The translations under genes were made by a program, and so were the position numbers. A stretch of 16,105 nt of DNA from Clostridia bacterium. Its GTDB lineage: Bacteria; Bacillota; Clostridia; Monoglobales; Monoglobaceae. The notes below the pieces were generated by a model. It ran no database searches. It was not told the origin of the DNA and saw only the letters and a program-made list of their open reading frames with translations. The DNA lies in contig JAGALN010000196.1 in NCBI GenBank assembly GCA_017625185.1, positions 1-16,105 on the forward strand, written 5' to 3'. Positions 10,864-12,900 of this stretch are shown piece by piece (positions within the stretch are counted from its first letter, which is position 1; every line of letters begins with the position of its first letter).

Positions 10864-11379
10864 GCAAACGCAAAATGGTACGTCGCCCACACCTATTCCG
10901 GCTATGAGAACAAGGTGATGACGGATATACAGAAAACCGTAGAGAACCGGAACATGGCTGATATCATTCAGGAGATTCGGGTTCCTATGGAAGAGGTTGT
11001 TGAAATCAAGGACAACCAGAAAAAGATTGTGGAGCGGAAAATCTACCCCGGCTACGTGATGGTCAAGATGGTCATGACGGACGAAAGCTGGTATGTAGTC
11101 CGGAACACCCGTGGTGTTACCGGTTTTGTCGGCCCCGGCTCTTCACCGGTACCTCTTACCGAGACCGAGGTTGAGAATATGGGCTTAGAGCGCACCACCA
11201 TCGAGCTGGATTTTGCTGCCGGCGACAACATCCGGGTCAAGTATGGACCCTTGGAGGGCTTTGTCGGCGTGATTACCGAAATCCAGATGGACAAAAAGAA
11301 GATTCGTGCCAAGGTTTCCATGTTCGGCAGAGATACCGACGTGGAGCTGGAGTTCAACCAGGTAGAAGCCTTGGTATAA
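10861..11379 (+). CDS. nusG: Transcription termination/antitermination protein NusG
   Basis: NusG binds RNA polymerase and influences pausing, termination and coupling to ribosomes. The 172-residue product has the NGN domain (from KWYVAHTYSGYENKV, through GYVMVKMVM and VRNTRGVTGFVG) and a C-terminal KOW domain starting near 120 (AGDNIRVKYGPLEGFVGVI). The ATG at 10861 is required because the NGN core begins at residue 5. The ribosome binding site is unusually distant. It is followed by the structured 134-nt leader of rplK. Confidence 0.97.
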   Translation: MANAKWYVAHTYSGYENKVMTDIQKTVENRNMADIIQEIRVPMEEVVEIKDNQKKIVERKIYPGYVMVKMVMTDESWYVVRNTRGVTGFVGPGSSPVPLTETEVENMGLERTTIELDFAAGDNIRVKYGPLEGFVGVITEIQMDKKKIRAKVSMFGRDTDVELEFNQVEALV

Positions 11380-11393
11380 GCAAAACATCGTTC

Positions 11394-11449
11394 CCCACAC
11401 GGATGATTCCGTTTTTATATTCCGGCAAAGGTTTTTGCCGGTCTGTGGG
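11394..11449 (+). ncRNA. Three-way junction in the rplK leader
   Basis: CCCACA (11394-11399) can pair with TGTGGG (11444-11449), enclosing two hairpins: CGGA/TCCG (11400-11403, 11408-11411) and an 8-bp stem CCGGCAAA/TTTGCCGG (11422-11429, 11434-11441). The closing stem uses the same GTGG bases that form the putative L1 site just downstream, so the two folds exclude each other. No T-tract follows, so it is not a simple terminator. Confidence 0.5.
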
Positions 11450-11486
11450 AGGGATACGGACAGGCGTTCGTTCCCGGTAATACCAC
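11445..11486 (+). promoter_or_regulatory. Putative ribosomal protein L1 binding site upstream of rplK
   Basis: The RNA can form GTGG (11445-11448) with CCAC (11483-11486), and an inner helix GGGA + ACG (11451-11454, 11456-11458) with CGT + TCCC (11469-11475). This leaves an asymmetric internal loop, GA(G) on the 5' side and GGTAATA on the 3' side. L1 is known to repress the L11-L1 operon by binding an mRNA mimic of its 23S rRNA site, which has the same two-helix, asymmetric-loop design with GUGGGAG and AAUACCAC. It lies 27 nt before the rplK ATG. Confidence 0.65.
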
Positions 11487-11513
11487 GTTTGTAAAACAAG
11501 GAGGTGTATTGAA

Positions 11514-11939
11514 ATGGCACAGAAGATCACAGGTTACATTAAGCTGCAGATTCCGGCTGGTAAGGCAACTCCGGCACCCCCGGTAGGTCCCGCTTTAGGT
11601 CAGCACGGTGTTAACATCATGGACTTTACCAAGCAGTTTAATGAAAAGACACAGAAGGATGCAGGTTTGATTATCCCGGTTGTTATCACCGTATATCAGG
11701 ACAGATCCTTCACCTTTGTAACCAAGACTCCCCCCGCACCTGTTCTGATTAAGAAGGCTTGTAAGATCCAAAGCGGATCCGGCGTTCCTAACAAGACCAA
11801 GGTTGCACAGCTGAGCAAGGCGGACTTAAAGGCAATTGCTGAACAGAAGATGCCCGATTTGAACGCAGGTTCTGTTGAGGCAGCAATGTCCATGATTGCT
11901 GGTACTGCTCGCTCTATGGGCGTTACCGTTGAGGAGTAA
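11514..11939 (+). CDS. rplK: Ribosomal protein uL11
   Basis: uL11 forms the GTPase-associated centre stalk base on 23S rRNA. The product is 141 residues, the normal length. The N-terminal domain contains the hallmark [18 protein letters not shown] (about 22-39); the C-terminal rRNA-binding domain contains [14 protein letters not shown] and [19 protein letters not shown] lies 10 nt upstream of the ATG. Translation is probably controlled by the preceding L1-site-like structure; L1 is encoded by the next gene. Confidence 0.98.
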
Positions 11940-11967
11940 TCGAATCGGTTACAAGTATTTGAAAATA

Positions 11968-12002
11968 GTGGGAGGAACAGATATTCTGTTCTGTAGAACC
12001 AC
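11968..12002 (+). promoter_or_regulatory. Second putative L1 binding site, upstream of rplA
   Basis: GTGG (11968-11971) pairs with CCAC (11999-12002). The inner helix GAACAGA (11975-11981) pairs with TCTGTTC (11985-11991), where the last A-T pair may open. The internal loop is GAG (11972-11974) on the 5' side and TGTAGAA (11992-11998) on the 3' side. The 3/7 asymmetry and the 5' GAG match the known L1 recognition element, and the outer helix equals that at 11445-11486. It ends 3 nt before the AGGAGG of rplA, ideally placed to block its own gene. Confidence 0.65.
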
Positions 12003-12005
12003 CAT

Positions 12006-12022
12006 AGGAGGATGTAACATTG
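12006..12022 (+). promoter_or_regulatory. Ribosome binding site deciding a TTG start for rplA
   Basis: AGGAGG (12006-12011) is 8 nt from TTG (12020-12022). No in-frame ATG exists upstream before a stop at 12005, and the L1 family start KKGKKYQD follows directly. An ATG at 12012 abuts the Shine-Dalgarno sequence and is followed at once by TAA, so it cannot be the start. Confidence 0.85.
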
Positions 12023-12715
12023 AAGAAAGGTAAAAAGTATCAAGACAGCGTAAAGCTGATTGAAAAGGGTAAGTTATATGACCCGGCTGAAGCACTGGAA
12101 CTGGTATGCAAGACTGCAACCGCAAAGTTTGACGAAACCGTTGAACTCCATGTAAAGCTCGGCGTTGACTCCCGTCATGCGGACCAGCAGGTTCGTGGTG
12201 CGGTTGTACTCCCCAACGGAACCGGTAAGACGGTTCGGGTTCTGGTATTTGCCAGAGAGGGTAAGGCCGACGAAGCAAAGGCTGCCGGTGCTGACTATGT
12301 TGGTGCTGAGGAGCTGGCACAGAAGATCCAGACCGAGAACTGGTTCGATTTCGATGTTGTTGTTGCAACCCCTGACATGATGGGTGTTGTAGGTCGTATC
12401 GGTAGAATCTTGGGTCCCAAGGGCTTGATGCCTAACCCCAAGGCAGGCACCGTTACCCCCGATGTTGCGAAAGCCATCGAGGAAATCAAGTCCGGTAAGA
12501 TTGAGTACCGTCTGGACAAGAGCAACATCATCCACTGTCCCATTGGTAAGGCATCTTTCGGCGGCGAGAAGATCTCTGCTAACTTTAACGCTCTCATGGG
12601 CGCTATCGTGAAGGCAAAGCCGGCTGCTGCAAAGGGTCAGTATCTGCGGTCTGTAACCGTAGCTTCCACCATGGGCCCCGGCATTAAGCTCAACCCCAAC
12701 AAGGTAGAGGGTTAA
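12020..12715 (+). CDS. rplA: Ribosomal protein uL1
   Basis: uL1 forms the L1 stalk that guides tRNA out of the E site and, in studied bacteria, represses its own operon. The product is 231 residues, the normal length. Recognisable segments are [67 protein letters not shown] and the C-terminal [12 protein letters not shown]. Initiation is at TTG. An L1-site-like hairpin lies directly before the ribosome binding site. The gene is followed by a 197-nt gap carrying the rplJ leader. Confidence 0.98.
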
Positions 12716-12750
12716 GCCACAATTCACTTTAAAAAAATTAAAATGGATAA

Positions 12751-12854
12751 CATTCCGCAGACAGCAGGTGGCACACCGCCGTAAATCCTGCCGAGGATGA
12801 CAATACGCGTGTCTTTGTGTATTCTGTCCCTCGCATTTCTGCGAGGGATTTTTT
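12751..12854 (+). ncRNA. L10-type ribosomal protein leader
   Basis: The gap between rplA and rplJ has the hallmarks of the L10 leader described in Firmicutes: GCAGG (12764-12768) paired with CCTGC (12787-12791), the conserved TAAATCCTGCCGAGG segment, a further AATAC/GTATT pairing, and a terminal intrinsic terminator. L10 (probably as the L10-L12 complex) is known to bind such leaders and shut off rplJ-rplL. Assignment is from memory of the family consensus. Confidence 0.75.
12827..12854 (+). terminator. Attenuator terminator in the rplJ leader
   Basis: A perfect 9-bp stem TCCCTCGCA / TGCGAGGGA with a TTTC loop is followed by six T residues. It is 58 nt upstream of the rplJ start, so readthrough is needed for rplJ-rplL expression. 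Confidence 0.92.
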
Positions 12855-12900
12855 CTCGCTAGATGCCGATTCCGACTTGTGTGGAATGAAAAAACAGAAA

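Follow-up and report, generated by a model that had tools for sequence, protein, structure and literature searches.

The rplK-rplA operon analysed here very probably carries two L1 autorepression sites, an arrangement that is already in print as a class. From the comparisons of sequence and predicted structure set out below, we put the probability at roughly 85% that the operon has two translational operators for L1, each a mimic of the L1 site in 23S rRNA. With somewhat less than even confidence, the modelled folds further suggest that the rplK leader of one Clostridia family may be a protein-controlled bistable RNA, in which the closing strand of a three-way junction would sequester the L1 site and be displaced by L1. 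The window, i.e., the whole stretch of DNA that was analysed, comprises 16,105 nucleotides from a Clostridia bacterium of the family Monoglobaceae (assembly GCA_017625185.1, contig JAGALN010000196.1), and its features are collected in Table 1. The neighbouring genes secE, nusG, rplJ and rplL were assigned by eye from their translations and the gene order. The gap between rplK and rplA, read from the sequence, is 80 nt, the length that an earlier note on this DNA had given.

Table 1. Features of the rplK-rplA region, in window coordinates.
Feature	Positions	Strand	Basis or parts
Three-way junction P1-P2-P3, window's family	11394..11449	+	P1 = 11394-11398 CCCAC with 11445-11449 GTGGG; P2 = 11399-11412; P3 = 11422-11441
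L1-binding-site mimic of rplK: outer helix GTGG/CCAC, asymmetric loop GA / GGTAATA, inner helix of 10 bp	11445..11486	+	sequence, folding, conservation, 23S match, covariance model
Shine-Dalgarno GGAGG of rplK, 13 nt 3' of the L1 site	11500..11504	+	sequence; pattern
rplK (ribosomal protein L11), 141 aa	11514..11939	+	ORF; match in 38/38 family genomes, own included
L1-binding-site mimic of rplA: inner helix closed by G-U, GTAGAA as 3' loop (6 nt)	11968..12002	+	sequence, folding, conservation, covariance model
Shine-Dalgarno GGAGG of rplA, 4 nt 3' of the L1 site	12007..12011	+	sequence; pattern
rplA (ribosomal protein L1), TTG start, 231 aa	12020..12715	+	match in 30/30 genomes searched, own included

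As read from the letters, the rplK site is GTGG-GA-GGGA..TCCC-GGTAATA-CCAC and the rplA site is GTGG-GA-GGAACAG..CTGTTCT-GTAGAA-CCAC, with 27 and 17 nt, respectively, from the end of CCAC to the start codon. The earlier note had described a GTGG/CCAC structure at both places, and each was found there and folded alone as described (z of -2.25 with 4 of 200 shuffles equally stable at rplK, and z of -2.53 with 2 of 200 at rplA). The 7-nt 3' side that it had read at both sites stood for rplK (GGTAATA) and fell for rplA, where the G-U closing pair leaves 6 nt. The pattern GTGGG­AG..CCAC had two matches in the window against 0.34 expected and 11 of 200 shuffles also reached two, so that the letters of the window alone are only mildly unusual and the sites are regarded as beyond chance because they are conserved in relatives. 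A covariance model of 28 other sites, built without the window's sequences, gave 31.0 bits to the rplK site and 25.3 bits to the rplA site, and the next match in the window had 8.1 bits. Searches with Rfam 15 returned no match over either site or the junction in the window (E ≤ 1); in four relatives, all matches were to L10 leaders, apart from one snoRNA hit below threshold on the opposite strand of L114. An L10 leader (RF00557, 72.8 bits) was also found in the window at 12737-12863, between rplA and rplJ, so that three autogenous RNA elements (L1, L1 and L10) follow one another in this cluster. This leader resembles the L1 sites in being an autogenous leader of the same cluster, but it is an unrelated RNA that serves another protein complex, L10(L12)4 (PMC10931766).

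Both L1 sites were present in each of the 38 genomes from the window's family, among them the window's own, and at both the inner helix was variable while the loop and the outer helix were kept. Constrained folding showed that the inner helix of the rplK site was closed by a G-C pair in 38/38 genomes and had a loop of 7-8 nt, which read GATAATA in 17 genomes, GATATTA in 14 and a near variant in 7. The rplA site was G-U closed in 36/38 genomes with a 6-nt loop in 34/38, and no fewer than 30/38 had a loop of the type GYNNAA. Among the 38 genomes, 31 different inner hairpins occurred at rplK and 29 at rplA, which bears out the claim that the inner helices differ while the architecture is kept. 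A genome-wide search with covariance model R1 (29 positions) gave hits at E ≤ 0.001 in 0/38 family genomes; R1 is too short and weak at this scale, and therefore a pattern of the site plus a Shine-Dalgarno sequence was used. It had 75 matches in the 38 family genomes, 69 at the rplK and rplA places and 6 elsewhere, and a reversed control pattern had none. The site pattern failed to pick up 7 of the 76 sites, owing to GGAGA as the Shine-Dalgarno sequence in 2 and to a long spacer in 5. The six matches outside the operon (G013:C3, G032:C9, G036:C30, two in G037:C6, and G046:C22) were inspected by eye and rejected as L1-site hairpins. Some members of genus g7 (L141-L143, L145, L146) had an insert of ∼40-50 nt between the rplK L1 site and its Shine-Dalgarno sequence.

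The 23S comparison was made with G031, the one genome of the 38 with a 23S sequence and a family member other than the window's own genome. Its L1-stalk region, GGTGGGAG ... GGGATACCAC, which we take to be H76-H77 (helix numbers after a review), shares its core with the mRNA sites: 5' GTGGGAG and 3' ATACCAC. Where the rRNA has an arm, most mRNA sites have one short inner hairpin instead. The comparison with 23S rRNA, for which the earlier note had named this genome's own sequence, found the core common to both, and the note's central claim, L1-binding-site mimics at both genes, is supported by this match together with the conservation of the sites and the varying inner helices.

L1 binds H76-H78 and represses rplK-rplA via mRNA mimics, and in Firmicutes both rplK and rplA can have an L1 site upstream (PMC10931766, citing Fu et al. 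2013); dual L1 sites also occur in Thermus and Thermotoga (PMC10931766, citing Mikhaylina et al. 2021). The dual uL1 mRNA sites of these groups are irregular stem-loops before rplK and rplA with an internal bulge that mimics 23S rRNA (PMC10931766), as are the sites described here. Since this review of 2024 describes dual sites in Firmicutes (PMC10931766), the dual-operator reading is not new as a class. What may set the window's family apart from the dual sites elsewhere is that its two copies differ consistently from each other (G-C closed with a 7-8-nt loop at rplK, mostly G-U closed with a 6-nt loop at rplA) and that a predicted three-way junction competes with the rplK copy. In the 2013 study by Fu and colleagues, dual sites were reportedly confirmed biochemically.

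To follow the sites beyond the family, the pattern GTGG[GA]AG..CCAC was applied to 109 Clostridia loci with both genes, which came from the genomes searched that had rplA and from the best 80 of 590 related stretches. The genomes may overlap, one of the loci is that of the window's own genome, and locus L079, which lacks rplK, was left out; because the best 80 of 590 were taken, the set represents the closest relatives of the window's L1 and is not an even sample. In this set, 66 loci had both sites, 20 the rplK site only, 17 the rplA site only and 6 neither, and some of these last six may hold variant sites. The gap between rplK and rplA was 0-23 nt in 20/20 loci with the rplK site only, and where it exceeded 40 nt the rplA site was present in 84 of 87 rows (the window and its duplicate L001 included), both counts again drawn from the set with the best 80 of 590 stretches. 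In the same set, the three loci with a gap above 40 nt and no rplA site were L020 (68 nt), L027 (45 nt) and L029 (127 nt). L029 has a variant, TTTGGGAG..GATACCACC, in place of the standard rplA site. The distribution fits separate operators where rplK and rplA lie apart and coupling where they lie close, and with it the earlier note's proposal that the two genes are controlled separately, although the association is partly built in because one site itself takes ∼40 nt. By eye, an extra hairpin was seen in the 3' loop side of several sites (at rplA in L074, L089, L097, L105 and L108; at rplK in L040, L043, L053 and L066), and such an insertion would turn the mimic into a three-way junction that resembles 23S H76-H77-H78 to some degree. 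In L109 and L110 (gaps of 175 and 179 nt) the rplA L1 site had a very long insert between GTGGGAGGAA and TTCCGCAAATACCAC.

In the regulation that we propose, the operators, each immediately ahead of the ribosome-binding site of its gene, rplK or rplA, would act as mimics of 23S H76-H77. Free L1 would bind both and block ribosome entry at each gene, and 23S rRNA would compete L1 away from the mRNA operators. As 80 nt separate rplK from rplA, either gene would have an operator of its own.

Upstream of the rplK site, the family has a conserved block that in most members reads GTTNCCCACACGG..CCGT, followed by a joint rich in A/T and by another hairpin, which ends just before GTGGGAG. The CCCAC strand of this block is the exact complement of GTGGG, and as the resulting helix P1 draws on bases that the L1 site needs for its outer helix, the two helices are mutually exclusive. 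The junction element of the window had a z of -3.83, and none of 200 shuffles was equally stable. When the element was cut out and folded freely, P1-P2-P3 was predicted in 38/38 family genomes, a result that is helped by cutting at both P1 strands, which favours P1. RNAalifold also predicted the three-way junction P1-P2-P3, with a small covariation term (-0.28 of -8.1 kcal/mol). In the 35 sequences compared, four of the five P1 pairs were invariant and the fifth was U-G in place of C-G in two genomes; P1 is thus nearly invariant, and no compensatory double change was seen in it. One pair of P3 had changes on both sides in 16/35 sequences, with 11/35 broken or gapped because some P3 helices are displaced in the alignment; in P2, one pair had such changes in 2/35. 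In genus g3 (L137, L138) the closing strand CCTACC still pairs with GGTGGG, and the sequences of P2 and P3 are quite different. In 36/38 family genomes the junction model R2 had a single match, which lay at the rplK leader, and the two genomes that it missed were the genus g3 pair with only 18.4 and 13.4 bits. R2 found nothing in 13 other genomes of the order, with filters that lose some weak matches, and a single hit (E of 2.3) in 91 other loci, 11 of which (L020-L030) come from genomes that the search of the order had also covered. Because R2 was built from family sequences, its family hits are by construction, and it would overlook junctions with another sequence outside the family.

The competition between the two folds was assessed from the presence of the upstream partner and from predicted pairing. 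An exact CCCAC 24-100 nt upstream was found for 36/38 rplK sites of the family and for none of its 38 rplA sites, 67 other rplK sites or 64 other rplA sites; it occurred in 38 of 760 shuffles made with our own approximate dinucleotide shuffler. When G-U pairs were allowed, a 5-nt partner of GTGGG was present for 38/38 family rplK, 36/38 family rplA, 58/67 other rplK and 40/64 other rplA sites, and it is the exact CCCAC alone that sets the family rplK sites apart. GTGGG was predicted to pair upstream (P > 0.5) in 37/38 family rplK sites, against 3/38 family rplA, 6/67 other rplK and 7/64 other rplA sites. The outer helix of the L1 site was predicted with P > 0.5 in 0/38, 23/38, 12/67 and 18/64 of the same groups; since it is also weak in most other rplK and rplA sites, its weakness is not peculiar to the window's family. 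In a shorter context P1 exceeded 0.5 in 31/38 family genomes and lay below it in 7/38, and the L1 outer helix exceeded 0.5 in 2/38. The ensemble difference favoured P1 over the L1 fold in 35/38 genomes, by a median of only 1.9 kcal/mol, which is within the error of the energy model. Sequestration of the Shine-Dalgarno sequence by the alternative fold was also considered and found to be unsupported, as its accessibility hardly differs between the two folds (0.58 vs. 0.49); any effect is therefore likely to be on L1 binding, not directly on the ribosome.

A conserved alternative fold on the bases of the regulatory site, the mark of a bistable leader, is thus found before rplK at the level of prediction. 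If the rplK operator of the window's family is bistable, the upstream CCCAC would capture GTGGG in the three-way junction, which is transcribed first and is usually predicted to be the more stable fold without protein. The junction should form first, because transcription completes P1-P3 ahead of the 3' strand of the L1 site. L1 would then have to win against the junction at rplK and not at rplA, and the alternative fold may tune how easily the L1 brake engages.

The upstream block could instead have nothing to do with L1, the operators themselves being real, and serve as a promoter for an rplK transcript: many family members have, by eye, TTACCC and TATATA 17 nt apart. We consider this unlikely. 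A scan of 11300-12100 listed two promoter-like sites, neither of them there, albeit with four of six matches required per hexamer, so that a weak promoter would be missed. P2 varies as a helix does (ACGG/CCGT, CAGC/GCTG and, in L137 and L138, a longer helix of other sequence), its greater length in L139 and L141-L145 changes the spacing, L137 and L138 keep the junction without TATATA, and CCCAC matches exactly the five bases GTGGG. Poorer odds still attach to P2 and a U-rich tail forming a weak terminator behind nusG that P1 merely overlaps; a terminator scan did flag 11399-11412 followed by TTTTATATTC, but this one site compares with 0.9 expected in shuffles, the P2 stem has only 4-6 bp in 35/38 genomes (all but L137-L139), and CCCAC and P3 would be left unexplained. 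That the hairpins at both genes are RNase processing sites or generic stems is very hard to credit, common as intergenic hairpins generally are in ribosomal operons, since conservation falls on the letters of the loop and outer helix common to 23S rRNA and not on the inner stem, and the motif with a Shine-Dalgarno sequence occurs almost only at rplK and rplA (69 of 75 matches in 38 genomes).

The preferred reading, two L1 operators with a possible competing fold at the first, joins a known class to a part of which we found no description in section 3.1 of PMC10931766, in Rfam or in a limited literature search that was not aimed at the junction: the twin sites are the known class, and the competing fold before rplK in the window's family is that part. 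The twin sites add one Clostridia family to a known feedback loop. If the competition holds true, the first and the second gene of one operon would differ in how sensitively they respond to their common repressor. Should the competing junction prove real, it would show how two set-points for one repressor can lie within a single mRNA, and it is a simple, testable RNA.
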